A stretch of 36,588 nt of DNA from IMG/VR virus record IMGVR_UViG_3300023108_000074, positions 1-36,588 of that record. One strand, 5' to 3'. A program made the translations under genes and the position numbers. Origin of the DNA: a virus. Positions 3,153 through 36,572 of the stretch are shown here, one piece after another (position 1 is the first letter of the stretch; each line of letters opens with the position of its first letter). The notes beneath the pieces are model-generated. The model ran no database searches and was not told where the DNA came from. It saw nothing but the letters and a program-made list of their open reading frames with translations.

Positions 3153-3536
3153 TTATTTATCGAGTAGTTTTTTAACCATCTCCTTGAGTTCATCTATTTC
3201 ATTTTGTTGTTCTTTAATTGCTTCAATTAACAACGGAACCATTTTTTCATACTTAACAGTTAAATAATTTTCACCGCTTATGCTATGACGTTCCATTTCT
3301 CCTGTATCGTCATTTACTTCATAACGTGTATCAAACGGAGCGTATGCTACAGCCTGCGGTAATACTTTTTGCACTTCTTGTGCTATAACACCTGCATCTC
3401 TAGTCTTGTTATCTGGTTCAAATCCTAGCTCATCTATAACTGGCTTCCAATCAAAATATAATCCATTTAAAGATTTGACTTTGTCTAAAGCGTTTTCTAT
3501 TGGTGCAAAGTTTTCTTTAAGACGTTCATCTGATGA
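3153..3536 (-). other. S74 intramolecular chaperone auto-processing domain
   Basis: The final 127 codons of the fiber gene encode SSDERLKENF, then GLYFDW, then DAGVIAQEVQKVLP, YLTVKYEKMVPLLIEAIKE and a heptad-like tail. These are the hallmarks of the peptidase S74 domain. In characterised members a Ser-Lys pair in the SDxRLK motif drives self-cleavage after trimer folding. Cleavage here just before SSDERLK is predicted, not shown. Confidence 0.88.
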
Positions 3537-12500: not shown

Positions 12501-12848
12501 TACACCATCATCTCCAGATGCTGTAAGTTCTTTAAATGTGACAGTTTTTGCATTTTCAATATCAAGATCGTTGAACAAGTTCATACCTGCTGCTGTAAAT
12601 TGAGCAGTGTCTTGTTCGTTTACCCTAATATTAATTTCTGCTGCTGCGCTATCTCCTTGATCGTCGATGGTAATTTCTGTATCGCCGTCAAATATACGGC
12701 GTGTTATGTCTTGCACAGTTGAATCATCACGCAGTAAGAATACTTTACCGTCTGCTGTGTTGATTGCTAATTCACCTGAATCTAATTGAGATACTAGGGG
12801 TTGTTTACCCGCGACCGCACTTCGCTTGTGTCTAATCTTTGTTGCCAT
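3153..12848 (-). CDS. Giant tail fiber with C-terminal S74 chaperone/protease domain, 3231 aa
   Basis: I place the start at the ATG at 12846-12848: AGGAGG lies 9 bases before it, whereas the TTG two codons upstream is only 3 bases from it. The N-terminus (GELAINTADGKVFLL, residues ~25-40) is a common fiber opening. A NVVYVSQ...GDDANDG stretch begins a beta-helix-like section (residues ~165-480). Three KCxRDxxxIxDA modules follow (~505-860). Then come fiber repeats, including GSGLTxL units. The last 127 residues begin SSDERLKENF and form the intramolecular chaperone of the endosialidase/S74 family, which in known members trimerises the fiber and cuts itself off before the Ser of this motif. 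The end is a coiled coil. It is probably a distal fiber for host contact. Confidence 0.9.
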   Translation of the reverse strand: MATKIRHKRSAVAGKQPLVSQLDSGELAINTADGKVFLLRDDSTVQDITRRIFDGDTEITIDDQGDSAAAEINIRVNEQDTAQFTAAGMNLFNDLDIENAKTVTFKELTASGDDGVGLKAPDVLDSGYTMTLPPSRGSVGQILATDGNGQLFFQDSDIFGGNVVYVSQEQGDDANDGQSAPVKTVKRACQIASGLVYNADGTINFKRVNIKVAVGDYTEQNPVIVPDNTVIKGDGLRGCIIRPANANLDMLRVRNACYFGEFTFRDGIDSNNVPTITADYAVAFDDPFDTVITDRADYTNLPDTRPTITTSPYIQNCSIISFLGMNGAKIDGSKVESPNVPLFGIEAENPVIGAIPEQGKSMVANAFTILSFGGTAWRLTNDAYAQIVSCFEIFLLNGVYCQSGGYCSITNSATNFGLYALRSSGFSPKAFQFDRSFVTATGSSEGKQTVSIVGINRDAPVEEFVLRFRESDNKTAHDLLLLNKDLIADDTVTYINNQIAAATPSIWAGFTYNEAKCRRDVQLLLDAIRYDLLFDSNHRSVSAALRYFSGSFSNFADQKDQHIAAFGQAKTFTANYITDATATSRANALWDEIIDIITNGDANTVPGDSVAAAYSRPTPTGGSDNASDSGFANAVTQLINNKDFIAAEVNAWINTQIAGDIEPFAIGFVYNEAKCLRDSKLIVDALLYDLTYGGNLQTKIAADAYFIDGTAQYGTGQQEETVAAYGRLKEVVSQVIVETAVSVSAGNAETQDTSADAGSAGAATYAENRIQEIRDFIGSVGATPVTVIEPDISWTSASLQTAFYELDEEGRINISQNVTQYINEQIQANIWYGFTYDESKCNRDTQLIVEAAAKDTWDTGNRYSRSAGLAYYTQNLQDSSRISISGQELQTIAAIDYAKTEAITYISSLSAAVQNFVGSRFDIVTTIINDPDDLPDPTEVSSEGDVTNNFKTTPTETTFNAATEVNATTNIFTITGHGFTNGQKVIYDPNGNAVIQGLDDEQQYYIKLLSEDEFTLAFDDSLDFNVNIIAASTGTHKFFSDVIEFFVEEILSSHTTYQTLELESGSETFEFVPGRAITGTTGSNNNSAIVYSWEPRIRRLIVSIEEVAVGQSLLRIQFDETSTIDSDHAASPNTTIGVNEAATKLGLGTATFSVTATDGSSSLTNLPNLPETQCWFHRPSVVNSSAHTWEYAGSGTDYNALPQNGGNTRSEYEQFEELPGRVYSSGTNELGDFKVGDFITAFNRTGNITFRNKVQVDELDALRLSLSDVAIEEISTSVNLGDDEIGGPSDGRLSTQLAVRSFISNRLGGFVDKTVSTAAVPGAIVQLNVNGQLNPDLIPATRQFTNTNTNGYQSRLEQVDDIPAIDLKAGDIATENYEQVELTLSANTFNASDGDTITQPGVTGAIGYAKGNYALSGNVIVVTIGGAWDDTDDSTGDPWETSSGNIFVNGVDSGVSINSKGPSTEIVDNWFLRSSNSSQFLVLDPTQNYTFTVDDTCSLTFAERNSDVATVTTSAAHNLQVGNTVQILNTTDETYNENGLVLSVPSSTTFTYTNVDSADPTKASAAATGTVRTIVTSADGNAQGAVTEFRSGIAVNVDNANIVGGSGYTPVLGNLVYESVPLQAKTGSGTGAKANITVTAGQVTDVDVSRGGTGYAVGDLLEVNASDVGGTGSGFEIEVTSIEKRAYVNILGGELFVASASSLDFVEDNTAVATSKDINQDDVITHNFLAGDTSGGGAVNYTTYRITITNHGFGNGDPVFYDTLGNVPIGGLLNEQVYYVKVIDANTIELYEGFALLNQVEFTSTPANNNHNITRQTINITDNSVIVENHGLTTGDAIRIESLSDGSTSNELFSTGGAGGPVDSGSRFFVGSVTTNSFTLHALRSDALSSINDLVTNAQDITTTGTGSAEVIVNNVQVESVINTSSRLIANWNTLAVTNIDAENIISGTISPSRLGSSGVPNSDSFLRGDSAYATVVQSLKVATTTDNPITLTGSSLSGEFYGDPVNIGIANADYDPLGTFSTLGTSRFLQTQFDVNTDGSGEVFIKDGVVDAGTLDSLDSAYFLNPANLTSLVPVTRGGTGIGTYSIGAILYAQSASTLNELQIGRQNTFLRSNGTEPEWGTALDLAEGLDVGSASLTSSSTGAGRLYNTNVTSLEIGGDATNISIGSASGSRNLFTFIASYEATISRDVVVNLETINQNAADVAQNGDKEIVMADTTGILAGMIVTGSASIPANTTVSGVTDDAIYLSVATTGSILSGTTLAFTYTPYTLGINPGDRINIGSSGVTNLDGTWPVSGATDTATSFTIRTDDLVTADPLDVPAGTATINGNLILRNESIVIGQAETSATPNDGIIKGVDGLGTNVEGGDLTIQGGLGTGSATGGDVVISTGDIGSSGDTKNTSQVRIRVNAGGVTEVTGYTNFSSSGAIKLPAGNTAARTSPPAAGDARFNTETVGFEGYDGTAWAPLGGVRDGDQDTYIIAETSAGADNDDLDFYTANVQRLQIDQDGDFRFGDSINKVIMDWATGNTQIAGDLTVTGDLQIDGTTTTINSTTLQVDDKNIELGTVASPTDATANGGGITLKGATDHTITWSNANDSWDFSEHVNAAANKEFRIANTSVLNATTLGANIINSSLQTSAMTTVGVLDSGSISSGFGNIDIGTSVFTGSGSGLTTLNASQLTSGTVSGSRLGGNQTMSGIKTFSDTSSATSTTTGAIRVSGGMGVAGALYAGSLNTANGSGIDNLNASNLDSGTVPNGRITGIYSNLTGTGALNQGSITSGFGNINIGTSTFTGNGSGLTNVDAETLDGIDSTGFVAVGGDVMTGQLQFNNTSTASSNSIRFGPGPAGSDDAHIEWMGGSNAGKLRISTSDDTGTEAIEFGDYDNTDRGGTFTQWLNMNRTTFTWQGNTIWHAGNDGPGSGLNADLFDNLGSGSFLRSDTNDSFSGTLSGSGAINISGNITGNVFTGDGSGLTGISADDANTLDGLDSTAFLRSNADNDSASGRYSTSGTKIEAGRGTGSVAMTTNDGYGNANLCFNHDSGVPDINGSSARIESSVDSSTQTMTFEVGNSTSNGVAVSLNTKMTITTGSVAVTGNLTATGEVTAYSSDERLKENFAPIENALDKVKSLNGLYFDWKPVIDELGFEPDNKTRDAGVIAQEVQKVLPQAVAYAPFDTRYEVNDDTGEMERHSISGENYLTVKYEKMVPLLIEAIKEQQNEIDELKEMVKKLLDK
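3895..4890 (-). repeat. GSGLTxL fiber repeats, about 4 copies
   Basis: Within the fiber C-terminal third, units with the pattern FTGxGSGLTNLxAxxLxSGT recur. Their cores lie near 3940, 4465, 4630 and 4835. Between them are DTSSATSTTTGAIRVSGG-like and SxFLRSDxxDS-like stretches. These are typical beta-structured shaft repeats of marine phage fibers. Confidence 0.7.
10240..11345 (-). repeat. Three KCxRD modules in the 3231-aa fiber
   Basis: Copies of the pattern FTYNEAKCxRDxxLIxDAxxYD occur near 11290, 10815 and 10325, spaced about 475-490 bases. The same module occurs ten times in the neighbouring 2223-residue protein, so the two fibers share an expanded domain family. Confidence 0.85.
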
Positions 12849-12926
12849 TTGCAACTGCCTCCTATTTAGGTCTGGGTCAGGTCTATGTAGACGCCCGTTT
12901 TTATACGATAGAAATCGTTATAATGT

Positions 12927-12934: not shown

Positions 12935-12942
12935 ATAGGAGT

Positions 12943-12971
12943 AAAAGTGGCAGCTTTTTAGAAGCTACCAC
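12943..12971 (-). terminator. Intrinsic terminator overlapping the stop of the 2223-aa gene
   Basis: A 10-bp stem (12947-12956 with 12962-12971, one G-U pair on the minus strand) has a 5-base loop and is followed by TTTTA on the minus strand. The TAA stop at 12958-12960 falls within the loop and the descending arm, so termination and stop codon overlap. Confidence 0.85.
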
Positions 12972-15900
12972 CATCAATTGTATCAGTCCATATTGGAGTG
13001 CTATCGGCATCACTTGTTACAGTGAGTATTTGAAAACTGTCTGTTGCATCAGCGCTACCTGCTGCTGCTGTAACTTTTAAAGGGTTAGCAGTGTCACCGT
13101 ATAATATACCATCTTCAGTAAATGTGCTTACACCTGTTCCGCCGTATTGCACTTCTAAATCATTGTTGGTTAATATTAAATTGCCATCAACTGTAACATC
13201 TATATCAAATGTTGTAGAACCGTTTACTGTTCCACCTGTTAATTTATTTAAATATCTGTTCTCAACATACTGTGCAACAGCTAATTGTGTAGGCGCTGTA
13301 TTTGCATCTTGTGCGCCATTACTTGCTAATAGTGCAGGATTGTTGCTTATTTCTTTTAATTCTACACCAACCGGAACACCTTCTCTTATTAGTGGACCAA
13401 TGCTTGTAAGTCCACTTAGATCTAGTTGGTTCGCATTAAGTGTTATACTACCGTCTAGTGCGTTTACTCCAAAGAAGTTACCAACTCTAAAGTTACCAAT
13501 TTGGTCAACTGTTCCGCCTGCAAATATTTTACCTTGGTTTGATTCTTTGATTTCTTCTTCAGGTATTGCAGTTCCGCCAAAGAATGGAAGTGCATTGTAT
13601 GTTATCCCTGCACCAACATATTCAAACGCATGTCCTGATGTAGATACGGTTGATACGTTGTATAACGATCCTTGCTTGTCTGTTGTTACACTTATTAATC
13701 CTGGGAAAATATTGATGTTTGCAATACCACCAAATGTCAAGTTTAGATCTGCAATAGCTGTATCAACAATAGTGTCTTCTGCTGCAAGTATTGTATTTCT
13801 GTCTGCTAAAAACGCACTGCTGCCTAATGCATAATTATGATCAAGTTCAGTCCATCCTGTGACATATTCTTGTTGCACTGCAAGACCAACTCTGTCTACT
13901 AGCAGCTTCAAGGTATCACCACCTATTGTTGTTCCATCAGGAATACTAACATCTTGTGTAAGTGGGTTATTGTAACTAGGTGTGATTGGTTCGTTGTTTG
14001 CAACTTTTTGCATTACATTTGCCAAATGGTAATATGTATATGCAGTTACTAGGACTTGATCAGCATTTCCTACTTTTGCTGCACCTAATATAGCACCATT
14101 ATAGTATGCCTCGCCTGCTCTTCGTGTTTGCTTATTACCGCCATACATCATATCGTATAATGCACTATCTATAATATAACCTGTATCTCTTTGACACTTG
14201 TCTACATTATATGAAAAACCAATTAGATTATCAGTAATGTAAGTAATTACAGCGTCTTGTGTTGTTGCCTTAGAAGCTAACAATTCAGATGCAACCAATT
14301 TTGTTCCTTCAGATAGCCAACTAAAGTCTGGCAATACTTGTGAATACTCAGGACCAACAGTGCCGCCTGTATTGATAGCATTTATAACAAGATCAAACAA
14401 GTCATCTGCAATAGTTTCCTCTACTGTAGTTCCGTAATTGCCTCCTAAGAACTGAGATTCATTATTTCCTGCTGTTGGAGTAACTGCTATACCCTTAATA
14501 CATTCACCAGCAACTTGCTTCAAGTGAGTAAATGCTGCAACAGTTTGAGACACCTGACTAGGTGGAATGTATTGTGCTGCACCTAAGAAGTAAGCGTTTG
14601 TTGCAACTAATGTTGCAAAGTTACCTGTGTATAATGCATCATGCACTACTGCATCAACAATGTAACCTACATCTCTCTCACATTTGTCTTCGTCGTAACT
14701 AAATCCGTTGTATGTTGTAGAAATAAAGCCGATTGTATCTGTAATAATAGTAGATTTTTCAGCATTTAAATTATCAATTGCAGTTTTTACACCTGCATCT
14801 GTTGATGTTAAATCTGGCAGTGTCTTTGTAGGAAGGTTGTCAACACCGTTAACAATTACATCTTGGAACGTTTGCAACAATGATTGAGCTTTGGTAACTT
14901 CTGTTGCACTAGCTGCTCCGGCACTTACATCTTGCGTTTCGTCTGTTTGTTCAGGATTAGCTACTGCAACATCTAATAACACATCGCCTAATAGTGTAGC
15001 AACATACGCTAACGCATTTGCTGTTTCGGTTTGCTGTCCTGCAACTTGATTTGATGTTCCAACATAATAACTTCTTGCTGCTTCTACACTTGCACTGTTA
15101 CCACCATAAAGTATATCGTATGTCAATGCATCAACAATATATTTTGTGTCTCTATTGCATTTATCGCTGTTAAATGTAAAGCTCTGGAAAGAATCACTAA
15201 TAAATGTTGTTACATCTGTTTGTAAAGTTGATTTATTACCTTTTATTGTGTTGTAGCCTTGCTGATAAACAACATCAGCCCAAAGCACACTTGGTAATTG
15301 TTCTGCTGGCAAACTTGTTAAATCACCATCTGAAATAACTTGCCTTATTACCTGAACTAAGCCTGATACTTCATCTGCTTCTGTAGAACTTGCATTTCCT
15401 TCTACCGGATTAGATTGTAATATTGTTGTTGCAGGAGAAGGAACAACATTTGCACCAATAACAATATCTCCTACAATATCTGCTAATCGTTCATACGCTG
15501 CGGCTGTTGCTGTTTCTTCCGATGCATCGCCTAGTTGTCCTACACCATCTACAAAGTAACTATTTGCTACAGTGCGTGTTGCAAAGTTACCGCCGTATAA
15601 AACATCGTGGCATAATGCATCAACAATGTATCCTACATCTCTTTCACATTTTGTTTGATCATAAGTTAAAGCTGGAAAGTTGTTGGCAATCCATGAAACA
15701 ATTTCATCTATAATGAAATTTTTATTCTGAATAAGTTGTGCTTTAGCTGCAACTTTGTCTGAGCTTCCTCCTGTAGGAGATGGAAATACTAACGGATCTG
15801 CTGCTGTATCTGTGCTAACTACACCGTTTTCCAAAATGTCAAGTATTTCGTTAAAACCTGCAATAACTCTAGGTTCAGCAGCAGATGTAAATCCTAATAA

Positions 15901-18900
15901 AACAGTTTCGTCACGCAAATACTCAATTGCTGCTTTGGTTTGTAGCAATTGCCCATCTTGCACAACACTGCTACTTGCTCTTTGATATGCAAGACCAGCT
16001 GTAACACTGTTGTAATTTGTTCCAAGTGCAGTATCTAGAGCTACTGCATCTAACATTAAACCCACATCTCTTTCACATTTAGCACTATCGTATGTAAAGT
16101 TTACATAATTGTTGTCAATAAATGCAACTGCTTCTGCTGCTAAAAATGCTCTGTTGTTTTGTAACTGTAATGCTGCTTCTTGTGCTGCCGCTGTTGCAAC
16201 AGCATTTGCGGTTGGAAATACTAGTGGATCAGCAGCATCATCTGTGCTGGTATTACCGTTTTGTATAATATCAACAACTTCGTCAAATGCACCTTCTACT
16301 CTAGTTTGCGCTGTAGCGTCTCCTGCAGTGGCAGTGCTTGCTTCTCCTTTGGCAAAGTTAATTGCACCTACTGTTTGTGTTTGTTGATCGCTTTGAACAT
16401 AAGCACTGTTTGCACGTTGGTATGAAAGTCCAGCTGTTACTTGATTATAATTTGTGCCAAACGCTGCATCAAAATATGCTGCATCAATGATTAATCCTGT
16501 ATCTCTTTCGCATTTTGCTTGGTCGTAAACAAAGTAATTGTCATTTATATATGCAGTAGTTTCTGCTTTTAAGAAATCTCTGTTGCCAACTAATTGATCT
16601 CTTGTATAAACCAATTCGTTACTTGCTGGTCCAGGCACAGTGTATTCGGTGCCCTCGCTTGGCAACTGGTCATATTGTATGAGATTAATTACATCTTCCC
16701 ACAGCGCATCTACCCTGTTTGCAAAAGTTGCATCTCTTGCTGCTGCTAATTTGCTCAGTCTTTTCGCTTCTAATAGTGCTATTATAGTTGCTGGCTTTTG
16801 TTCTACGTCAAGATATGCAGTATTGGCTCTGTGATATGCAAGACCTGCTGTTATACTATTATGATTAGTTTCTAATTGCGCATCAATATAAACTGCGTCA
16901 ATTATATAACCAACATCTCTTTTACATTTATCTACATTATATGTTAATGTAGGATAAGTTGCAACTATATCTGCTTCTGCATTAGAAATTATAGAAGTGA
17001 CTTGTCCTAGTATTGTGTTTGCTGCATCTTGTTGTCCTTGCGGCTCTTGTTCAAATAATGGATATGTTTTTGTTGCAGGCAGTCTGCTTAGAGTTAAATT
17101 TTCAATTACATCTTGTGTATTGAAAAGAAGTGCATCTAACGTAGCTGATTCGCTTTGGGTTGCATTAAGTTGTGAAAAGTCTTGCGATTCTGCATTGCCT
17201 GTTGTCTTTGTAACAAATTGCCCTCTTACAACTCTGCCGATTACAAAACGCATTCTTGCAAATGCATCTACCATTGTTTGTAACTCGGTATCTAATAGTG
17301 CTGTGAAGTCAAAATTATTGTAGTAATATTTTGTTTCTTGCACCAATGCACTGTCACCGCCATACAAAATATCAAAAGTTAGTGCATCTACAATTCGTTC
17401 GAAGTCTAATTCAAATTGTGCTTGGTCAAATGTAAATGATGGATTATCATTTTGTATGAATGCTATAAATTCAGCTACCAAAAAGTCTTTGTTTGCAATT
17501 AATTGATCCTTAGCATCTTTTGGATTGTATGTGCCAGAAGCTGCTGCATGATTTGGAAAGTCAATTACAATAGCACTGCTGTCGCCGTCATCAGTAATAT
17601 TTACAAACGTATTCATTGCTTCAGTAACACGATCTAACGAAGTAGAATCTGCTTGAACTTGAGCTAAACTTTCTAATGCATTTTGAATATGCTTGAAACT
17701 GTTAATATATAAATCTTTAAATCTAGGACGGATTTCTATTTCTTGTCCTAATCTCACAACATGCTGATTACTACCAATAGCAACATCCATTGCTACACCT
17801 TTAATAAGAGTTTCCATATCTTCGGCATATTGTGCTTGGTTGTAACTTAATTCTGTGAATTGATCATTGATATATGCAGTGATTTCTTCAATAATAAAAT
17901 CTCTGTTGTCTAATATATTGTCTTTGGCTTGTCGTATGCCTGGATCAATTTCACTTAAATCGTTAAGGACTAAATCACTTCCAGCTTCTGGAATAACACT
18001 ACTGTCGCCTGCATTCAACGTGCTTGTTATTATATTGAATCTAGAATCAATTTCGTCTTTCATAGCCTGATTAGTAATTTCGGCTTTCATTAAATCTCTA
18101 GTTGCTTCTAGTGCATAAACAGTAGGCGCTAACTGGTTGTTAAGAACTTTTGTTGCTGTAGCACGTAAATAACTGGTTGCTGCTGCTTGTGATTGGTATG
18201 TTGTTCCTAAAACAACATCGCCTGTTACGGCATCAATGATTCTTCTTGTATCTCTTCTACACACTTCCTCATCGTAATTAAACGGTGCGCTAATAATTTC
18301 CGAACCAGTAATGTAATAATAGTTTGCATCATCTTGAAATTTTATAATACTACCTGTTGCAGGTTTGTCTCGCAAACTGTTTATTTGTATCACACTATTA
18401 GTTTGCAGATTTACAACGCCTTGTGCGTCAACAGTTGGGCCGCCACCTGTAAATGTAATAGAAGGAACTCTAGTATATCCACTACCATTGTTTACAATTG
18501 TAACGCCACTTACTTTGCCTGTTGTAGCATCTATACCTGCGGTTCCTGTTGCTGTTACGCCACCTGCGCCGTCTGGTGCTTCAATTGTTACCGTTGGAGC
18601 AGAAGTATAACCGGCACCTGCATTTTGCACTGTAACACTAGCCACACTAGAGAAGTAATCTTGAACTGGTTTTGCATTTGTATATGCTACAGGATAGAAC
18701 CCGTCTGCAACAATGCCTTCCAAACCAAAGTCACTTACTGAGTTGGAGATACTGAGGTAACCACCATTTGTTGTTTTGAATCCTGTTGAACAGAAAACTG
18801 TAAAACAACTAACAATTTGTGTATATCCAAAGTTATCAATCCAGAAGCCTATACCGCCCTGTGCAATCTGTGTAAATGCGTCAGCAACAAAACTGAATAC

Positions 18901-19629
18901 AAGAGATGCTGGATCATAAGCGTCACCGTCGACATACATACCACCGCCGCCGCCGGTGTCATTTATTTGTTTATCAAATGGTAAATCTGGATAATCTTCA
19001 ACTTGCAGCGGCCTTGCGCTAGGTTCGATTCCTTCTATCTGCACTGTTTCAAAAGGTATAAATTCTGTTCCATCATTAAGCCAAGGACCATTCATGTTTG
19101 TGCAGTTTTGAACATAAGGTGAGGTTGTGCAAAGTGTGCCTGGACGTATTTCTGCACACCAACCTGGATATCTTAAACCGCGGAATGTCAACTGGTATAG
19201 ATAACACCCGTTGCCCATGTAAAAAATTGTTTGTGTGTTATTTTTTGGGAATACTCGTGTATTACGCAATTCCCCTTGCCCGGTAACTGTAACAAAATCA
19301 GGTAGCACAATAGGATTTTCTTCGTAGTAATCCCCTGGTGCAACAATAATTGTTGTTCCTGATTGAGCTACTTCTACAGCACCTTTAATTGTCCTTTTAG
19401 ATCCATATTTGCCTTCGCTGCGTCCGTCATTTGCATCGTTACCATCTTGACTTACATACAAGACATCGGTTGTTCGTGGCCCTGTAGCATCTCCGGATAT
19501 GGTAACGTTTCCATCAACAATTACATTTCCGCTCGGAGGGGTAATTTCGATGTTGCCGTCAGCAGTAAGAATTAAACTGCCGTCTCCAACCTTTCTCTCA
19601 TGTATGGTTTGTCTCTTAAAAAACTTCAT
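12958..19629 (-). CDS. Giant virion/fiber protein with ten KCxRD modules, 2223 aa
   Basis: The ATG directly follows the stop of the 110-residue gene (TAAATG) with GGAAG upstream. Residues ~55-330 open with DVLYVSQDGNDANDG and look like a pectin-lyase-type beta-helix. Residues ~445-1860 carry ten copies of a 140-165-residue module with the core YDxxKCERDVGYIVDAxxxD. The C-terminal ~250 residues match the middle of the 3231-residue fiber (HxFEYVGAGITYNALP, GNFRVGNFF, STFTEDGILYGD). There is no S74 domain. Proteins of this architecture are annotated as virion structural proteins in T4-like marine phages. It is probably a fiber or baseplate-attached adhesin; exact location is unknown. Confidence 0.85.
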   Translation of the reverse strand: MKFFKRQTIHERKVGDGSLILTADGNIEITPPSGNVIVDGNVTISGDATGPRTTDVLYVSQDGNDANDGRSEGKYGSKRTIKGAVEVAQSGTTIIVAPGDYYEENPIVLPDFVTVTGQGELRNTRVFPKNNTQTIFYMGNGCYLYQLTFRGLRYPGWCAEIRPGTLCTTSPYVQNCTNMNGPWLNDGTEFIPFETVQIEGIEPSARPLQVEDYPDLPFDKQINDTGGGGGMYVDGDAYDPASLVFSFVADAFTQIAQGGIGFWIDNFGYTQIVSCFTVFCSTGFKTTNGGYLSISNSVSDFGLEGIVADGFYPVAYTNAKPVQDYFSSVASVTVQNAGAGYTSAPTVTIEAPDGAGGVTATGTAGIDATTGKVSGVTIVNNGSGYTRVPSITFTGGGPTVDAQGVVNLQTNSVIQINSLRDKPATGSIIKFQDDANYYYITGSEIISAPFNYDEEVCRRDTRRIIDAVTGDVVLGTTYQSQAAATSYLRATATKVLNNQLAPTVYALEATRDLMKAEITNQAMKDEIDSRFNIITSTLNAGDSSVIPEAGSDLVLNDLSEIDPGIRQAKDNILDNRDFIIEEITAYINDQFTELSYNQAQYAEDMETLIKGVAMDVAIGSNQHVVRLGQEIEIRPRFKDLYINSFKHIQNALESLAQVQADSTSLDRVTEAMNTFVNITDDGDSSAIVIDFPNHAAASGTYNPKDAKDQLIANKDFLVAEFIAFIQNDNPSFTFDQAQFELDFERIVDALTFDILYGGDSALVQETKYYYNNFDFTALLDTELQTMVDAFARMRFVIGRVVRGQFVTKTTGNAESQDFSQLNATQSESATLDALLFNTQDVIENLTLSRLPATKTYPLFEQEPQGQQDAANTILGQVTSIISNAEADIVATYPTLTYNVDKCKRDVGYIIDAVYIDAQLETNHNSITAGLAYHRANTAYLDVEQKPATIIALLEAKRLSKLAAARDATFANRVDALWEDVINLIQYDQLPSEGTEYTVPGPASNELVYTRDQLVGNRDFLKAETTAYINDNYFVYDQAKCERDTGLIIDAAYFDAAFGTNYNQVTAGLSYQRANSAYVQSDQQTQTVGAINFAKGEASTATAGDATAQTRVEGAFDEVVDIIQNGNTSTDDAADPLVFPTANAVATAAAQEAALQLQNNRAFLAAEAVAFIDNNYVNFTYDSAKCERDVGLMLDAVALDTALGTNYNSVTAGLAYQRASSSVVQDGQLLQTKAAIEYLRDETVLLGFTSAAEPRVIAGFNEILDILENGVVSTDTAADPLVFPSPTGGSSDKVAAKAQLIQNKNFIIDEIVSWIANNFPALTYDQTKCERDVGYIVDALCHDVLYGGNFATRTVANSYFVDGVGQLGDASEETATAAAYERLADIVGDIVIGANVVPSPATTILQSNPVEGNASSTEADEVSGLVQVIRQVISDGDLTSLPAEQLPSVLWADVVYQQGYNTIKGNKSTLQTDVTTFISDSFQSFTFNSDKCNRDTKYIVDALTYDILYGGNSASVEAARSYYVGTSNQVAGQQTETANALAYVATLLGDVLLDVAVANPEQTDETQDVSAGAASATEVTKAQSLLQTFQDVIVNGVDNLPTKTLPDLTSTDAGVKTAIDNLNAEKSTIITDTIGFISTTYNGFSYDEDKCERDVGYIVDAVVHDALYTGNFATLVATNAYFLGAAQYIPPSQVSQTVAAFTHLKQVAGECIKGIAVTPTAGNNESQFLGGNYGTTVEETIADDLFDLVINAINTGGTVGPEYSQVLPDFSWLSEGTKLVASELLASKATTQDAVITYITDNLIGFSYNVDKCQRDTGYIIDSALYDMMYGGNKQTRRAGEAYYNGAILGAAKVGNADQVLVTAYTYYHLANVMQKVANNEPITPSYNNPLTQDVSIPDGTTIGGDTLKLLVDRVGLAVQQEYVTGWTELDHNYALGSSAFLADRNTILAAEDTIVDTAIADLNLTFGGIANINIFPGLISVTTDKQGSLYNVSTVSTSGHAFEYVGAGITYNALPFFGGTAIPEEEIKESNQGKIFAGGTVDQIGNFRVGNFFGVNALDGSITLNANQLDLSGLTSIGPLIREGVPVGVELKEISNNPALLASNGAQDANTAPTQLAVAQYVENRYLNKLTGGTVNGSTTFDIDVTVDGNLILTNNDLEVQYGGTGVSTFTEDGILYGDTANPLKVTAAAGSADATDSFQILTVTSDADSTPIWTDTIDGGSF
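14100..18310 (-). repeat. Ten KCxRD modules in the 2223-aa protein
   Basis: Module cores lie near 14190, 14672, 15150, 15640, 16068, 16500, 16918, 17410, 17825 and 18255, spaced 415-490 bases. The three central copies (16068, 16500, 16918) share a NxxxxTAGLxYxRA tail and are most alike. The copies near 17410 and 17825 have lost the Cys and Arg (AQFELDFE and AQYAEDME). Each unit ends with a LxxNKxFLxxEx helix before the next core. Confidence 0.9.
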
Positions 19630-31175: not shown

Positions 31176-32012
31176 ATGGAAAACGAAATTAGTCCTCTCA
31201 AAAAATATAGAAGACAACCTAAAATTTATGCAAATTTACCCAGTGGTGGTCGATACTATAACGATAACATTGTTGCCAACCAAGCATACACAGAAATGCC
31301 TGTGTTCAGTATGACAGCAAATGACGAAATACTTTTCAAAACTCCAGATGCACTGATCAACGGACAAGCGACTGCACAAAACATTAGAAGTTGTATACCT
31401 GGTATATTAGATCCTATGCAACTGGTCACACTAGACATAGACTATATCTTACTTGCAATTAGAATGGCATCCTATGGACCAAACCTAACTGTTAATGCAC
31501 CTTGTTCTCATTGCAAAGAAGAAAATCAATATGATATTGAAATACAGGGCTTGTTAGATTATTTTTCAAATTTGATCTATGAAGATCAAATTGTTATCAA
31601 CGGATTTACTTTTACATTACGTCCTTTAACTTACAAACAGTATACAGAATTCCAGCAACAGAACATTGCACTTGCTAGAGCTATTCAAATTCAAGCAGTT
31701 AAAATGGAAGAAGAAGATAGAAAAAAATTTACAAACGATACACTTTTGCAAATTGCAACTATCGGTGTTCAAGCAGTGTTACAAATGATATACAGCATTA
31801 CAGTAGATGGAGTTGAAGAAACCAATAAACAAGAAATCAAAGAATTTTTAGACGACAACGATATTTCAATGTTTAACAAAATAAAACAACATGTCGAATC
31901 TCAAGTTGCCAATTGGCGTATTCCAAATCAACAGGTTATGTGTGAGCATTGTAGTAAAGAAAATTCAGTTGCAGTAAGGGTGGACCAAACAGATTTTTTC
32001 GTCAAAGGCTAG
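31176..32012 (+). CDS. gp26: Baseplate hub assembly protein, gp26-like, with two CxxC pairs
   Basis: A 278-residue protein of the T4 baseplate (gp26-type) family, larger than T4 gp26 (208). The N-terminus (LPSGGRYY near residue 21) and the MPVFSMTANDEILFKTPDAL stretch (41-60) are the family hallmarks. Cys pairs at 110/113 (CSHC) and 256/259 (CEHC) look like a split zinc knuckle. A FxLRPLTYKQYxE motif lies near 147-158. It acts in building the baseplate hub, possibly as a tape-measure chaperone by position. AGGA is 7 bases before the ATG. Its TAG stop overlaps the GTG of the next gene. Confidence 0.85.
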   Translation: MENEISPLKKYRRQPKIYANLPSGGRYYNDNIVANQAYTEMPVFSMTANDEILFKTPDALINGQATAQNIRSCIPGILDPMQLVTLDIDYILLAIRMASYGPNLTVNAPCSHCKEENQYDIEIQGLLDYFSNLIYEDQIVINGFTFTLRPLTYKQYTEFQQQNIALARAIQIQAVKMEEEDRKKFTNDTLLQIATIGVQAVLQMIYSITVDGVEETNKQEIKEFLDDNDISMFNKIKQHVESQVANWRIPNQQVMCEHCSKENSVAVRVDQTDFFVKG

Positions 32013-32233
32013 TGTCTCTTGACGATAACGAGATTAAGACACTAGCCGATGACTTTGAAAATGAAATAAAAGGTATCAAGGATACGGCTTACAGAGTGTC
32101 TTGGCACATGCGTGGCGGCGTTAGCGTAGAACAGTTTCTATACGAAATGGATATAGAAGATCGAGAAATTATTCAAAAAATAATCAAAGAAAATATTGAA
32201 AATACCAAAACAGCCAGAATGCCGTTGGTTTAA
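32012..32233 (+). CDS. gp51: Baseplate hub assembly protein, gp51-like, 73 aa
   Basis: A 73-residue protein with a GTG start whose G is the last base of the gp26-like stop (TAGTG), so translation is coupled. The core RVSWHMRGGVSVEQFLYEM, followed by DREIIQKIIKENIENTKTARMP, fits the small gp51-type proteins that follow gp26 in marine T4-like phages. In T4 gp51 is needed for hub assembly but is not in the virion. The stop codon overlaps that of the convergent gene on the other strand. Confidence 0.7.
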   Translation: MSLDDNEIKTLADDFENEIKGIKDTAYRVSWHMRGGVSVEQFLYEMDIEDREIIQKIIKENIENTKTARMPLV

Positions 32234-33618
32234 GAAACTTCAGGATCAGCTGTAGCAGTTTGTGGCTCTATGCCATCTTTTTCGTTTGCTTCCGATCCAA
32301 GATCTATTTCGCCAGGTTGTTCATTGTCAGTGTTTTGAGTAAAGGTAATGTTGAACATTTCAGAAAATTTAGATTGCATTAATCTTCTGCGATCTCCAAC
32401 TGCTATAAACGGAACTGCCATAACTTTTTGTGGAGGATAAATTACATTTTGGAAAGCTAATTTAGCCCATTCGGTGCTGGCATATATTTGAGGATTTTTT
32501 TGATCTTTGCTTGCAGAATATTCCCAGCCGCCGTCTCTAAGCAGTTGATCAAATCCCAAATCAAACTCTCCTAACGCACCACTTAACGAATTTAAGGCAA
32601 GTCCTGTAACTCCCGCAATACCGCCTGTGATTGCACGGGCAATTATATTGTCTAGGAAGCCGGCTATCCATTCTGCAAGTATACGCTGATTTGCAGGTCT
32701 TGTAAGCCACCATTGAACTAAAAAGAATGCTGTCTCTCTTGCTGCCAGCATGGCTATTGCTCCAGGTAATCCAACACCGGTTCCTGCCATCACGCCTGCC
32801 CAAACATTAGAAATAGTCCTTGCCATGGTTAAGAACATGCGTATTCTTCTTACGCCTTTGAACATGGTCAAGCAAAGTGCGGATATCTGTGCTCCAAGTG
32901 CTGCTTGACTAGACAATATCAAATCATCTACTTCTTCTTGTGTAAGGTCGCCTTGTGCTTGTAAATCTTGCCAATAAGCACAGTTTGCAACATGAGAATG
33001 AAGCAGTGCTGTAGACCAGCCAGCAATCTCAAAAATACTCAATGCTAACTTCATCAAAGGATTGGTTAAAATAAATTTTGCAGTGCTATTTTTTTCTAAA
33101 AAATCGCCTAGTGTAGAACCAGATGCTCTATAACCTTCCATAAATCTGCTGCCAGCACCTAACTGTCTGTCTGCAACATTGTCTAATAATGTTTGTCTTA
33201 CAGGTTTTGAACCTCTGTTAAAGTCTTCTATAAATTCTGTTGCTGCTTTTTCGTCTGGAAATTTAAAAGCGTGTGAACCGATTTTAACCAAAAAGCCTTT
33301 TTCTTTGCTTCCTGACCACATTTTTGCATTTGCATCAAGGTTTACGTTGCCAGTCCTAGCATTATCGTAATCAGCAGCATTTCCTTGATTGCCAAACTTG
33401 GTTCCTAACTCGCTCCACATGGCGTTTAATTGTTTAACTTCATCCTTAAACGCCATCCTTCCAGGAGAGCCGTCAGGTTTGACCCTCTGCCACATTTGTC
33501 CTTTGAATTCAAACGTGTCATCGCCTAGAATATACTGCAAGCCTTTAGGAGGTGTATCTGCCTCAGCTTCGTTTATTATTACTTTATCATATGAAATTAC
33601 TTCTAGAAGTTTCACCAT
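32230..33618 (-). CDS. Large protein with hydrophobic helices, probable virion component, 462 aa
   Basis: I start at the ATG 33616-33618 because a perfect late box TATAAATA at 33648-33655 would begin transcription about 23 bases before it; an upstream in-frame ATG at 33705 lies before that promoter. The start has a poor Shine-Dalgarno. The N-terminal third is polar (DDTFEFKGQMWQRVKPDG). Residues ~180-345 hold four hydrophobic helices (for example MKLALSIFEIAGWSTALL and VWAGVMAGTGVGLPGAIAML). The C-terminus is acidic. I do not recognise the family. Hydrophobic helices in a late gene suggest a membrane-active or ejected virion protein; that is inference. It converges on the gp51-like gene with overlapping stops. 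Confidence 0.75.
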   Translation of the reverse strand: MVKLLEVISYDKVIINEAEADTPPKGLQYILGDDTFEFKGQMWQRVKPDGSPGRMAFKDEVKQLNAMWSELGTKFGNQGNAADYDNARTGNVNLDANAKMWSGSKEKGFLVKIGSHAFKFPDEKAATEFIEDFNRGSKPVRQTLLDNVADRQLGAGSRFMEGYRASGSTLGDFLEKNSTAKFILTNPLMKLALSIFEIAGWSTALLHSHVANCAYWQDLQAQGDLTQEEVDDLILSSQAALGAQISALCLTMFKGVRRIRMFLTMARTISNVWAGVMAGTGVGLPGAIAMLAARETAFFLVQWWLTRPANQRILAEWIAGFLDNIIARAITGGIAGVTGLALNSLSGALGEFDLGFDQLLRDGGWEYSASKDQKNPQIYASTEWAKLAFQNVIYPPQKVMAVPFIAVGDRRRLMQSKFSEMFNITFTQNTDNEQPGEIDLGSEANEKDGIEPQTATADPEVS

Positions 33619-33647: not shown

Positions 33648-33655
33648 TATTTATA
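33648..33655 (-). promoter_or_regulatory. Late promoter box TATAAATA for the 462-aa gene
   Basis: The minus strand carries an exact T4 late box TATAAATA, 30 bases before the chosen ATG. It lies inside a longer open frame, which is why I treat the upstream in-frame codons as non-coding. Confidence 0.7.
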
Positions 33656-33663
33656 TACATTTG

Positions 33664-33682
33664 AGTTGAACTACGTTCAACT
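33664..33682. repeat. Perfect inverted repeat just upstream of a late promoter
   Basis: AGTTGAAC (33664-33671) and GTTCAACT (33675-33682) form 8-base arms around a 3-base centre, 9 bases upstream of the TATAAATA box. It has no T tail, so it is not an obvious terminator; a protein-binding site or RNA hairpin is possible. Confidence 0.6.
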
Positions 33683-33730
33683 GTGTTTTCGTTTGCACTC
33701 AACACAATTATAATTTCTTAATTGATAATG

Positions 33731-33763
33731 AGAAATGCAATACAACGAAGTGGTATTGCTTTT
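33731..33763. terminator. Terminator-like hairpin at the 3' side of the second candidate RNA
   Basis: GCAATAC (33737-33743) pairs with GTATTGC (33753-33759). The minus strand is preceded by AAAA and followed by ATTTCT. On the plus strand the tail is TTTTAG, so it may work in both directions. It marks a likely 3' end for the minus-strand RNA upstream. Confidence 0.5.
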
Positions 33764-34095
33764 AGTATCATTCAGATTGTGAAGTCATAATTCGCCCGTT
33801 GCCGGGCGAAGGTAGCTTTTGAGCTTCATTCGAGTCGCTTCAGCCATCTTGTTAAAAGAGATTCAACTTTCGTTGTCGGAGGCGGTTGACCTGTATCCCC
33901 CTACTCTAGCTTCGTCATATCAACGGAAGGCAGTTATTCCCTAACAAGCGAAAACACTTACCCTTGGGTTGCTTTTTCTCAGAGCCCATTCCTTTAAAGC
34001 CTATCGTATACTTCTTCACGCGAGCATTCCACGCCACCGGCCACGAGCATTACCTCGGCTGGATCTTGGAGTTTAATTAGAGCTCGTTATATAGC
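33737..34095 (-). ncRNA. Candidate structured non-coding RNA, ~360 nt
   Basis: No gene fits this stretch, which is visibly richer in G and C than its flanks. Read on the minus strand it contains a perfect 8-bp hairpin with a GCAA tetraloop (33791-33810), a CAAC/GUUG hairpin with a GAAA tetraloop (33864-33875), GUUA/UAAC (33933-33945), AAGUG/CGCUU using a G-U pair (33946-33959), and CGAG/CUCG (34044-34057). GNRA loops and the wobble pair point to the minus strand. It follows a GIY-YIG gene. I find no tmRNA, RNase P, SRP or tRNA signature. A ribozyme (for example a group I intron) or a regulatory RNA is possible. Confidence 0.6.
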
Positions 34096-34521
34096 CTATT
34101 TGTGTTCTAGTAGTGCCTGGCGTAGTTTGTTTGATCCACCAACTCTTACATTGATGATTCCGTTGTAGTATTCGTCTGTTTCCAATACTCGCCTGTCAAA
34201 CTGTTCTCGTGCTTCAATGTAACTCATTTCTGCTCTGCTTTGGCAGAAGTAAAGTATTTCACGAGTAAAGTTTTTTTCGCCTAGTGTTTTTACATCTTCG
34301 TTCAGTCTATCTGAACTTCCCCAGTATTCACGCCAATCGCTTTCTTTGTAGCCTCGACGTTTGTTCTTTTTGCCTTTTAAAGGTGGCTTGGTTGTTTTAA
34401 ACTTTGCTAATTTTTTGCCTACATACTTTTGTTGTGTTTTTAAGTTGGTAATAAGGTATACAAAGCCTTCATATTTATCGTCAATCTTGTCAACTTTTTC
34501 ACCATTATATGTCCAACTCAT
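34096..34521 (-). CDS. GIY-YIG family endonuclease, 141 aa
   Basis: A 141-residue protein with GIY-YIG order: FVYLITN (residues 20-26, for GIY), KYVGKK (32-37, for YIG), YWGSSDRLNEDVKTLGEKNF (67-86), then the candidate metal-binding Glu103 in SYIEAREQF and the YYNGI motif (118-122). It has a basic loop (KGKKNKRRGYK, 49-59) suited to DNA binding. No C-terminal homing domain is present, so it is either a free-standing nuclease or a minimal homing enzyme. It starts 3 bases after the 91-residue gene with no good Shine-Dalgarno, suggesting coupled translation from the gp46 operon. A candidate structured RNA follows. Confidence 0.8.
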   Translation of the reverse strand: MSWTYNGEKVDKIDDKYEGFVYLITNLKTQQKYVGKKLAKFKTTKPPLKGKKNKRRGYKESDWREYWGSSDRLNEDVKTLGEKNFTREILYFCQSRAEMSYIEAREQFDRRVLETDEYYNGIINVRVGGSNKLRQALLEHK

Positions 34522-34524
34522 ACT

Positions 34525-34800
34525 TTATGTATTATTTCTTTTGGCTGCCTTTACCTCTTTTGATTTCTGTGCCTTTGCTTTGTTGCTTGCCCATTTACCA
34601 GATGCTCTAACCTGTTCTAAAACTACCAGGTAATGGTCTTGTATTTCGTCTTGCCTTTGTTTTGCTAGCCTCATAAGATTACGCAATGTGCGTCTTGCGT
34701 TCCGTTTTGTTCTATCACTTGGTCCTTGTTCAAACTTTTCGTTTGCTGCAAAATATTCCAAGTATGCCTTTACCAGTTTATCATGTGTGTCATCTGTCAT
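34525..34800 (-). CDS. Small basic helical protein, 91 aa
   Basis: A 91-residue protein starting MTDDTHDKLVKAYLEYFAAN. The middle is Arg/Lys-rich (DRTKRNARRTLRNLMRLAKQ), followed by DEIQDHYLVVLEQVRASGKW and a Lys/Ala tail. Proteins like it sit beside gp46 in marine T4-like phages, but no function is known to me. Charge suggests nucleic acid binding. Its ATG overlaps the gp46 stop (ATGA), so the two are co-translated, which places it with recombination/replication functions. Confidence 0.75.
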   Translation of the reverse strand: MTDDTHDKLVKAYLEYFAANEKFEQGPSDRTKRNARRTLRNLMRLAKQRQDEIQDHYLVVLEQVRASGKWASNKAKAQKSKEVKAAKRNNT

Positions 34801-36572
34801 TCAACAATCTCTACATCATTTGCATATGAAGTAAAGCCGTTCTCCTTAATAACTTTGAGAACATGATTAACTCTACCAACTAGTTCGTCTTTGTGTGAGA
34901 TAAGGAAAACATTTTTGCTACGCTCTCTGCCCATCTTTTTCAACACACTCAATGCATTTTCTACACCAGCGGTGTCCATGCCACTATCAATAAGTTCGTC
35001 AATAAACATCAAGTTAATGCCTTGATACAGTGATTCCCAAACATCACGGAATGCAAAACTCATACCTAGTATAAGTCTGTTGCGTTCACCGCGTGACAAG
35101 TTATCAAAGTCTAAGTCTTGACCGAGTTGTGTAATCTCAACATTCAAATCATTTTGGAATCTAACCTGATGCGGCAGTCCTAGTCTATCTAAATAGTAGG
35201 TTAATCTGTTGTTCAAGTATGCCAAGTTCTGATCGATAATCTTTTTTCGAATAAAACTGTCTTTGTTTGTAAGAAGTTTAAGCAAAAACTCTTGATGATC
35301 TTTAATATTTGTTAATTCGTTAACTGGATTCCAGTCGATTTGTTGTATAGCTGTTTCATTTAGATCATCTATTTGTGTTTGATAAGGATCATCTTCTGTT
35401 TTTTTATTTTCCAGTGCAATTTTCAAGTTTTCTACATTGTTTCTATGCTCGTATGCTTCTTTTGCACTTTCATAAAATGTATTTGGGCGTCCGTTGATAT
35501 CGCCTATGTCGTTTAGTGCTTGCATAGTTGATTCAAGTTTGCCTGCAACTTCGGTTTGGTATGCAAGTGCATCACTTAATTCTTTTTGTTTGCGAGTTTC
35601 AATTTCTGCTTTCTTGTCTGCATGTAATTCTTGCCCACAGGTGTAACAAACAGCATCATCAAGTTCTTTAATATCTTTTTCTGCCTTGTCAACAGTCTTT
35701 GTTGCCCGCATCAATGCGCTTTCTAGTGTGGCTTTTTCTTTATTCAAGCTGGTTATACGATTATTAAGCTCAGTCCAGTTTACAAGTTTGTCATGTGCGT
35801 CTAATTCGGCATCGATGTCGAGTTTTTCTAATTCTTCAATGCCTTTTTCTAGTTTTTCAACGTCGGTTTTTTGTTTTGCCATCCATGCACGTTGTCTTCC
35901 AGCAAGTGTTTCGATACTTTGTTCAATTTTTTTGTTACTAGCCTCGATAGCATTGATTTTTAGTGTTTCTTCTGTGATAGAATCTTTGGTTTTGCGTGTT
36001 TGTTCCTTTAACACATCTGCTTTTTCGGTCAGTATTGTGATACCAAGTAGCTGTTCGATGATTGCACGTTGATCATTGGCCCGCATACTCAAGAACGGCT
36101 CGGTATAAGTGTTCAATGCAAGTATGTGCTTGAACATGTCATGGCTCATACCAAGTAATTCTTGCACATCTTCTTGTGTTTTACGGCTATCCCCTTGTGA
36201 TTCGTCAATGTCTTGTTTTTGTTCTTGATCATTTACATAAAACTTGAATATATTAGGAGAGCGGCCACGTTCAATGCGGTATCTGTTGCGTCCTTTCTCA
36301 AAGTTTAGTGTTACCAACATGCCTTTGCTGTTGGTTTTGTTGATTAGATTGTTTCGTTTGATATTTGTTAGGGCAGTTCCGTATAATGCGTAGCTTAGTG
36401 CATTAATAATTGTAGTTTTACCAGTTCCGTTACGTGATCCAGTGTCATCACCGCCTTGGTCCAGGTTCTCACCAAGCACAAGTGTCAGCTGTTCTTCATT
36501 GAAGTCAACTGCTTGGGTAACATTACCCACACTCATAAAGTTTTTTACTGTTAAATCTTTTATTCTAATCAT
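34797..36572 (-). CDS. gp46: Recombination endonuclease subunit gp46 (Rad50/SbcC-like)
   Basis: A 591-residue SMC-type ATPase. The Walker A motif GSRNGTGKTT is at residues 45-54, preceded by a short acidic insert (ENLDQGGDD). Coiled coil runs ~170-430 with a zinc hook CYTC at 309-312. The ABC signature LSRGE is at 492-496, Walker B LMFIDE at 521-526, and the switch His in ISHKDE at 558-563. With gp47 it resects DNA ends for recombination-dependent replication. All motifs are intact, so the protein looks complete. gp47 would be expected just beyond the right edge. The stop overlaps the 91-residue gene (ATGA). Confidence 0.96.
   Translation of the reverse strand: MIRIKDLTVKNFMSVGNVTQAVDFNEEQLTLVLGENLDQGGDDTGSRNGTGKTTIINALSYALYGTALTNIKRNNLINKTNSKGMLVTLNFEKGRNRYRIERGRSPNIFKFYVNDQEQKQDIDESQGDSRKTQEDVQELLGMSHDMFKHILALNTYTEPFLSMRANDQRAIIEQLLGITILTEKADVLKEQTRKTKDSITEETLKINAIEASNKKIEQSIETLAGRQRAWMAKQKTDVEKLEKGIEELEKLDIDAELDAHDKLVNWTELNNRITSLNKEKATLESALMRATKTVDKAEKDIKELDDAVCYTCGQELHADKKAEIETRKQKELSDALAYQTEVAGKLESTMQALNDIGDINGRPNTFYESAKEAYEHRNNVENLKIALENKKTEDDPYQTQIDDLNETAIQQIDWNPVNELTNIKDHQEFLLKLLTNKDSFIRKKIIDQNLAYLNNRLTYYLDRLGLPHQVRFQNDLNVEITQLGQDLDFDNLSRGERNRLILGMSFAFRDVWESLYQGINLMFIDELIDSGMDTAGVENALSVLKKMGRERSKNVFLISHKDELVGRVNHVLKVIKENGFTSYANDVEIVE

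Follow-up and report, generated by a model that had tools for sequence, protein, structure and literature searches.

Comparative evidence for a structured RNA with a twin word downstream of segE in marine T4-like phages

Introduction

The td intron of bacteriophage T4, with I-TevI, is a group I intron with a GIY-YIG homing endonuclease. GOLLD and ROOL are large structured phage RNAs, and their function is unknown according to the available text of PMC12286853. Marine phages, Melnitz included, carry a two-piece tmRNA with a glutamine riboswitch, as stated in the available part of PMC9004378.

Herein, we describe an RNA found in a stretch of 36,588 nucleotides (the window), positions 1 to 36,588 of the IMG/VR virus record IMGVR_UViG_3300023108_000074. 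A preliminary description of the window had noted an unassigned structured RNA next to a GIY-YIG gene and had suggested a ribozyme, an intron relic or a new phage RNA. The RNA resembles GOLLD and ROOL, as the available text presents them, in being a large structured phage RNA (here about 350-550 nt). It differs from them in having no Rfam match to either, in not lying near tRNA genes (none in eight long marine contigs) and in carrying one short word twice, a twin word that the available text of PMC12286853 does not mention for them. Like the two-piece tmRNA, as far as that is described in the source, it is a structured RNA gene of marine T4-like phages, but ARAGORN and Rfam find no tmRNA at the RNA loci. 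In Melnitz, SegE is 68% identical, but only 148 nt lie between segE and the next gene. As in td/I-TevI, a GIY-YIG gene adjoins a structured, pseudoknotted RNA; here, however, no intron model matches, the RNA is not within a gene and the endonuclease gene lies upstream of it.

No description of a twin-word RNA was found in a literature search of mainly open-access papers, the transcriptome work on PA5oct aside, and a term search of PMC7824862 gave no matches. We regard the RNA as a large structured phage RNA of the GOLLD/ROOL sort, as that sort appears in the available text, with a twin-word hallmark that is not described in the literature searched. Such large phage RNAs are a standing puzzle, and the present one has what are plausibly counterparts in cultured giant phages.

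Results and discussion

The RNA locus and its neighbouring genes

The features of the locus are collected in Table 1. The gene order is gp46, orf91, segE, RNA, a variable gene and a convergent baseplate hub; the window RNA thus lies between gp46 and the baseplate-hub gene, in agreement with the synteny counts given below. The segE stop codon (34098-34096, minus strand) is followed by no plausible gene until the ATG at 33618. The preliminary description had reported a gene-free stretch of about 360 nt; the stretch is indeed gene-free, but the true gap is larger and extends to this ATG. A 491-aa ORF has been called from the GTG at 33705, within the conserved RNA hairpins. Its true start, as read from the sequence, is most likely the ATG at 33618, since upstream of it lie the TATAAATA box (33655-33648) and two conserved hairpins.

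Table 1. Features of the RNA locus in the window.
Feature	Position	Strand	Basis or remark
gp46, SbcC-like recombination nuclease subunit	34797..36572	-	phrog_77, 2.1e-103
orf91	34525..34800	-	conserved gene order
segE-like GIY-YIG gene	34096..34521	-	PF19835, 2.1e-32
Type A structured noncoding RNA (probable extent)	33664..34095	-	33737-34095 plus two 3' hairpins; covariation; no Rfam match
P1 domain	34021..34086	-	closing stem 34086-34082 / 34025-34021
P2 hairpin	33999..34011	-	34011/33999 G-C 26, A-U 14 of 40, E<0.025
P3 hairpin UGGG/CCCA, loop CUCUGAGAAAAAGCAA	33965..33988	-	by eye
P4	33929..33962	-	stem 33962-33956 / 33934-33929, bulged A
P5 long-range helix	33848..33948	-	33948-33942 (CUUGUUA) / 33854-33848 (UAACAAG); pseudoknot with P4
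P6 hairpin GGGGG/CCUCC, GGUCA in loop	33878..33901	-	only a G-U/A-U change (22 and 7 of 29)
P7 variable hairpin, GAAA loop in window	33864..33875	-	E 0.05
R1, first copy of twin word, AAUGAAGC in window	33823..33830	-	word comparison
P8, 8 bp, GCAA tetraloop, between R1 and R2	33791..33810	-	near-invariant in type A
R2, second copy of twin word, AAUGAUAC in window	33765..33772	-	word comparison
P9 hairpin	33737..33759	-	aligned in type A; each pair broken in at most 2 of 29
P10 hairpin, GA/GA around 2-bp stem	33683..33705	-	33697/33692 U-A 28, C-G 12 of 40, E 0.05
P11 terminal hairpin	33664..33682	-	33680/33666 A-U 20, U-A 19, G-C 1 of 40, E<0.025
Late-promoter box TATAAATA of next gene	33648..33655	-	TAAATA conserved after RNA
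Downstream gene	32230..33618	-	likely start ATG 33618
T4-type baseplate-hub gene, convergent	31176..32012	+	PF12322, 1.3e-17

The RNAs found after segE are of two types, A (that of the window) and B. A TAAATA box lies 3' of the RNA in 20/20 type A and 83/109 listed type B sequences with at least 60 nt available; the T4 late promoter consensus was taken as quoted in the available text of PMC5259590. The segE gene lies upstream on the same strand at 87/87 testable type A and 195/196 testable listed type B places, overlapping loci of one contig being counted separately and L146, L155 and L156 being excluded. L197 is the sole listed type B RNA with enough upstream sequence yet without segE.

This arrangement could be that of a cis element, which would serve the gp46-segE operon as a 3'-untranslated structure, a terminator or a means of stabilisation, or would form the leader of the gene that follows. 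Such an element would suit the position of the RNA, which adjoins the segE stop codon at one end and stops ahead of the late-promoter box at the other, and its place 3' of segE at 282 of 283 testable marine places among the matches listed. However, the downstream gene is not conserved, being near the RNA at 39/63 type A places vs 5/120 listed type B places, and ORFs can separate segE from the RNA (L052, L077). Moreover, five copies in phage GAP32 stand beside different genes with promoters of their own. We therefore consider a cis element unlikely.

Two observations concern the neighbouring genes. PHROG 447 and many GenBank records give the SegE/GIY-YIG family the label 'NAD synthetase'. According to PF19835 it is a GIY-YIG endonuclease, and the label is probably a propagated misannotation. 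In addition, the window contains two giant minus-strand ORFs (3153-12854 and 12958-19629; 3233 and 2223 codons), perhaps tail or fibre proteins.

Evidence for a structured RNA in the window

On comparative sequence evidence, the stretch after segE is a real structured RNA of the minus strand; it begins at 34095, next to the segE stop codon, and reaches 33737 or beyond, probably 33664. The folding energy of 33737-34095 gave z scores of 0.11 (minus) and -0.70 (plus), no better than chance, so the hairpins alone prove little. The RNA is accepted as real because of its conservation, phylogeny-aware covariation and a pseudoknot with compensatory changes. The G+C content per 200-nt window was 0.41-0.47 in the RNA stretch, 0.31-0.33 just downstream and 0.33-0.40 upstream (34100-34700), with one coding window at 0.495. 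The enrichment in G+C that had been reported is thus present on both sides, but the contrast is modest and a coding window surpasses it.

Rfam 15 at gathering scores, with GOLLD, ROOL, tmRNA, RNase P and introns included, gave no match in the window, in 12 related loci, in the PA5oct and Phosso loci or in those of GAP32, 121Q, XaC1 and RaK2. With permissive filters, all matches stayed well under the gathering scores (best E 1.0-1.3), and ARAGORN found no tRNA or tmRNA gene in the window and 19 loci. These scans, of which the preliminary description had proposed that against Rfam, bear out its statement that no tmRNA, tRNA or RNase P is visible. It had also named an intact protein gene in homologues as grounds for rejecting the RNA. 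The protein-gene reading of the type A region was discarded; the longest stop-free runs were 44-81 codons and, with one exception, antisense. By eye, some short similarities to rRNA and RNase P were noticed among the RNA sequences.

Conservation and fold of type A

A SegE protein search of IMG/VR returned at least 600 loci, and the best 80 were used. The whole region was matched in 22 of these 80 (76-89% identity over 493-558 aligned positions). Pattern scans for type A gave 95 matches, of which 83 were full and 43 distinct; removal of three chance matches (L146, L155, L156) left 40 distinct full-length sequences, the window included. Sequences truncated by contig ends were left out of the type A and type B counts, and blocks that served as search patterns are invariant by construction. 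The alignment consists of long near-invariant blocks, one variable hairpin and a P1 stem that changes yet stays paired.

Covariation was assessed against 40 null sets in which substitutions were re-placed on a FastTree tree. Five Watson-Crick pairs were supported at E <= 0.05 in the 40 sequences (34086/34021, 34011/33999, 33875/33864, 33697/33692 and 33680/33666). A sixth pair at this threshold, 34087/34021, is not Watson-Crick and neighbours 34086/34021. The P1 pair 34086/34021 is C-G in 23, U-A in 14 and G-C in 3 of the 40 sequences, without exception (E<0.025). In P7, 33875/33864 is C-G in 28, U-A in 10 and U-G and A-U in one each, and other members have longer hairpins at this position. 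The alignment and covariation test recommended at the outset thus bear out the suggestion of a new phage RNA, which is conserved, covarying and without an Rfam match.

Several helices were also followed by eye. P3 appears as UGUGG/CCACA vs UUGGG/CCCAA among members, and P4 is re-paired in the diverged L113 and L137. These two also carry compensatory changes in the pseudoknotted helix P5, where 33944/33852, a U-A pair in 27 of 29 sequences, has become A-U in L113 and G-C in L137; one of the 29 has the pair 33947/33849 broken. The invariance of P6 is partly by construction since it overlaps a search pattern. The place of P8 also holds a stable hairpin in type B, PA5oct and GAP32-type RNAs, and the P10 motif occurs in 40/40 type A and, among the matches listed, 109/132 type B sequences. 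The two GNRA hairpins reported earlier are present (GCAA on an 8-bp stem, 33810-33791; GAAA on a 4-bp stem, 33875-33864), as is the short direct repeat CGAGCATT at 34021 and 34044. The repeat looks incidental in the alignment because the copy at 34021 belongs to the variable strand of P1 and is different in homologues.

The GIY-YIG neighbour, the GNRA loops and the pseudoknot would fit a mobile-intron relic, or a ribozyme, linked to the endonuclease. The GIY-YIG gene, however, is part of the conserved order gp46-orf91-segE-RNA. No intron or ribozyme model appeared among matches up to E 10, 5 and 3, and the RNA is intergenic, with segE on one side and a separate gene on the other. The 3-nt gap between segE and the preceding gene leaves no room for a 5' intron half, and tblastn (E 0.01) found no SegE relative in 19 jumbo-phage stretches. 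The intron relic of the preliminary description is accordingly not supported, and we regard a mobile-intron relic or ribozyme linked to the endonuclease as very improbable. Ribozyme activity as such is possible.

Type B and its relation to type A

Among the best 80 of at least 600 SegE loci, all 53 with at least 600 nt after segE carry an RNA (type A in 22, type B in 31). The type B searches gave at least 209 matches, at least 164 full and at least 132 distinct. Types A and B have the 3' hairpins in common and sometimes also the P1 domain; the middle of type B is not recognisably homologous. At E<=1e-3, the type A 3'-hairpin profile found 99/132 listed type B sequences (best 7.7e-18, with a bias of 12 bits), the P1 profile 10/132 (best L225 at 1.6e-16; L257 at 5.9e-13) and the middle profile 0/132. 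Values of nhmmer for the 5' end take in the end of segE and were not used. In the other direction, the HMM and CM of the type B core do not find type A, the window and 12 type A loci giving no CM match at E 1. One profile does not cover the two cores. Long contigs, which are not necessarily complete, carry one recognisable copy each (B 7/7, A 8/8).

The type B RNA is sometimes found behind an inserted small ORF. Small ORFs between segE and the type B RNA are seen in L052 (about 4423-4680) and L077 (about 4423-4725).

Long pairings proposed by RNAalifold for the type B core were rejected, being broken in the diverged L323; the core CM was built on these pairings. By eye, L323 re-pairs GUAGGU/ACCUAC as GUAAGU/ACUUAC. 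Covariation over the full type B alignment is unreliable because compact and long forms are mixed. A scan of genome contigs for the RNA gave two matches, both due to chance. In blastn searches of INPHARED, type A gave no match, the long form of type B one 25-nt chance match and the compact form none.

Counterparts in cultured jumbo phages

For the major capsid protein of a 236-kb contig, the nearest relatives are in Sinorhizobium phage Phosso (71%), in Vibrio phage 2.275.O (70%) and in the GAP32 group (65%); for gp46, the nearest is in PA5oct (50%). In PA5oct, 663 nt between gp46 and the baseplate-hub gene are without annotation. In GAP32 the gap is 804 nt and lies past gp46 and endonuclease VII. 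In Phosso it is 1,014 nt and lies past gp46 and a Holliday-junction resolvase; the stretch examined there contains no annotated hub. The plus-strand folding energies surpass those of shuffled sequences, with z -6.44 for 403 nt of PA5oct (100 shuffles), -5.00 for 811 nt of Phosso (20 shuffles) and -3.84 for the 804 nt of GAP32 (20 shuffles), where the minus strand was nearly as strong (-3.56). Atu_ph07 and Vibrio phage 2.275.O showed no comparable blank gap in the stretches examined. The Phosso gap (L363, 9410-10425) contains a GGGG...GUCAGA...CCCC hairpin and a CCCCGCAACCGGGG hairpin. Possible further copies lie at PA5oct positions 12940 and 246191, with about 90 nt in common with the 5' part of the PA5oct region.

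The GAP32 gap was matched in 41 INPHARED records at 155 places, including the E. coli phages 121Q, PBECO4 and Sharanji, and Klebsiella phage RaK2, where the match covers 9% of the query. The neighbours of the matching copy in XaC1 and RaK2 are other genes, mostly hypothetical. In ten further phages the gap is by endonuclease VII or a hub-side gene; it is blank in six (GAP32, CBB, SNUABM_12, BF, Munch and 121Q) and filled with short ORF calls in four (Kaldavass, 7t3, Kae01 and Hallingskeid). In the records L374, L378, L381 and L383, short 'hypothetical protein' ORF calls fill the conserved RNA region. The 12 phages and four GAP32 paralogues gave 15 distinct GAP32-type sequences, in which four pairs covaried at E <= 0.03 and 11 at E<1, all 93-100% Watson-Crick.

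Profiles of type A, type B and the B core do not find the 12 GAP32-type sequences (best E 4.6), and those of types A and B do not find PA5oct or Phosso. The type B CM gave no match in five cultured phages (best E 0.25, Melnitz). That the marine and cultured RNAs form one family is plausible though unproved, and is suggested by locus and architecture, not by a sequence score.

GAP32 contains five copies, at about 35.1, 98.7, 177.4, 261.4 and 340.6 kb, which lie between annotated genes; within the 340-kb copy an ORF of 114 nt has been called. The promoter TG[AG]AAC-N17-TATAAT stands upstream of all five. With spacers of 15-19 allowed, the genome has 34 such sites, all on one strand. The available text of PMC5259590 reports a second promoter class in CBB, also present in GAP32, with -35 TGAAACG and -10 TATA, which the promoters of the copies resemble. 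At the 35-kb copy, a rho-independent terminator is annotated just after the promoter, so this copy may be cut short or silent. The presence of five copies, each with its own promoter, points to a stand-alone RNA.

A twin word around a stable hairpin

The hallmark of these RNAs is one short word that occurs twice around a stable hairpin. The word is lineage-specific, and both copies change alike and in the same sense. The hairpin of type B stands between ACUCA[CAUGAA]G and AUCUA[CAUGAA]A, which are 51-63 nt apart where measured; other double words are CAUAAU, CGUGAA, CAUGAU, CAGAAA, CAUAAA and CAUGAG. Of the 132 listed type B sequences, eight were unparsed. The first six letters of R1 and R2 agree in 120/124 parsed type B among the matches listed (98 with CATGAA, a word favoured by one scan pattern that contained the R1 word CATGAAG, and 22 with another) and disagree in four, one perhaps by a parsing error. 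In type A the double words are AAUAAU, AAUGAU and GAUGAU, and the first six letters agree in 37/40. The window is one of the three exceptions, its words being AAUGAA and AAUGAU, alike in five of six letters.

In 48 diverse listed type B cores, the two best covarying column pairs were equal positions of R1 and R2. The best was A/A in 39, T/T in 5, G/G in 2 and otherwise in 2 (E 0.25), and the second G/G in 43 and A/A in 5 (E 0.91). At this borderline level, R1 and R2 are coupled by identity and not by pairing, a signal that tests of base pairs only would miss.

The agreement of the words extends to the cultured phages. CGTCAG occurs twice in five, CGTCAAG twice in five and CTTCAAG twice in RaK2, so that 11/12 agree; in XaC1 the words CGTCAAA and CGTCAAG differ in the last letter. 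In GAP32, CGTCAG stands in both places in all five copies, and in the 98-kb copy each word has two U-to-C changes relative to the sister copies. In PA5oct, UAUGUCGUA and CAUGUCAUA were seen by eye around CUACCCC-GAAAA-GGGGUAG, and in the Phosso gap a twin word was not recognised.

These data bear on whether types A and B and the cultured RNAs are unrelated occupants of one permissive intergenic locus, the shared ends of A and B having arisen by recombination. Their cores have no profile or CM match to each other, as would be expected of unrelated RNAs. Against this, the order word-hairpin-word is common to A, B, GAP32-type and, by eye, PA5oct RNAs, and the same side of gp46 is occupied in most cultured phages examined. 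Unrelated origins are in our view doubtful.

Possible function

The words might be guides that base-pair with a nucleic-acid target in trans, the target changing along with them. They are variable at several positions yet agree with each other, as a common complement would demand. However, genome-wide enrichment of the word complement was not clear in GAP32 or PA5oct, flank matches lay in conserved stretches thousands of bases off and not at one site, and one GAP32 copy is unlike its four sisters. Guide words are thus improbable. Within the RNA itself no complement of the word was found, and no convincing covarying complement was found in the flanks, where one scan was swamped by the word sites themselves. 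CGTCAG is slightly over-represented in GAP32 (z 2.5, 95th percentile), and its longer forms are not.

On balance, we lean towards a structured noncoding RNA of jumbo T4-like phages that stands alone, probably acts in trans and has two docking words for one partner. In the marine lineage the RNA would presumably be transcribed with the gp46-segE operon and then trimmed, and in GAP32 every copy would be under its own promoter. In the predicted fold the 5' part is pseudoknotted, and within the 3' domain the stable hairpin separates the two word copies. Since the words have the same sense and change together, both should face the same thing. They may be identical docking sites through which a single RNA holds a partner in two copies. 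The partner would most simply be a protein, of phage or host, or possibly another RNA. Acting in trans, the RNA could serve as a decoy, a scaffold or the core of an RNP.

A broader proposal, possible though well short of likely when all its parts are taken together, is a new class of phage RNA that carries a lineage-specific identity word twice and holds two molecules of one partner. The class would be multi-copy in some genomes and would extend over jumbo T4-like phages of the sea, of enterobacteria and of Pseudomonas; its role might be that of a self/non-self tag or of a phage RNP core.

The similarly built RNAs of cultured phages make the function testable in the laboratory, and several copies, own promoters and a sharp hallmark allow deletion, pull-down and word-swap tests. 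The record of Sharanji names E. coli K-12 MG1655 as the host, and that of Pseudomonas phage Paride, which has the counterpart of the PA5oct gap, names PAO1.
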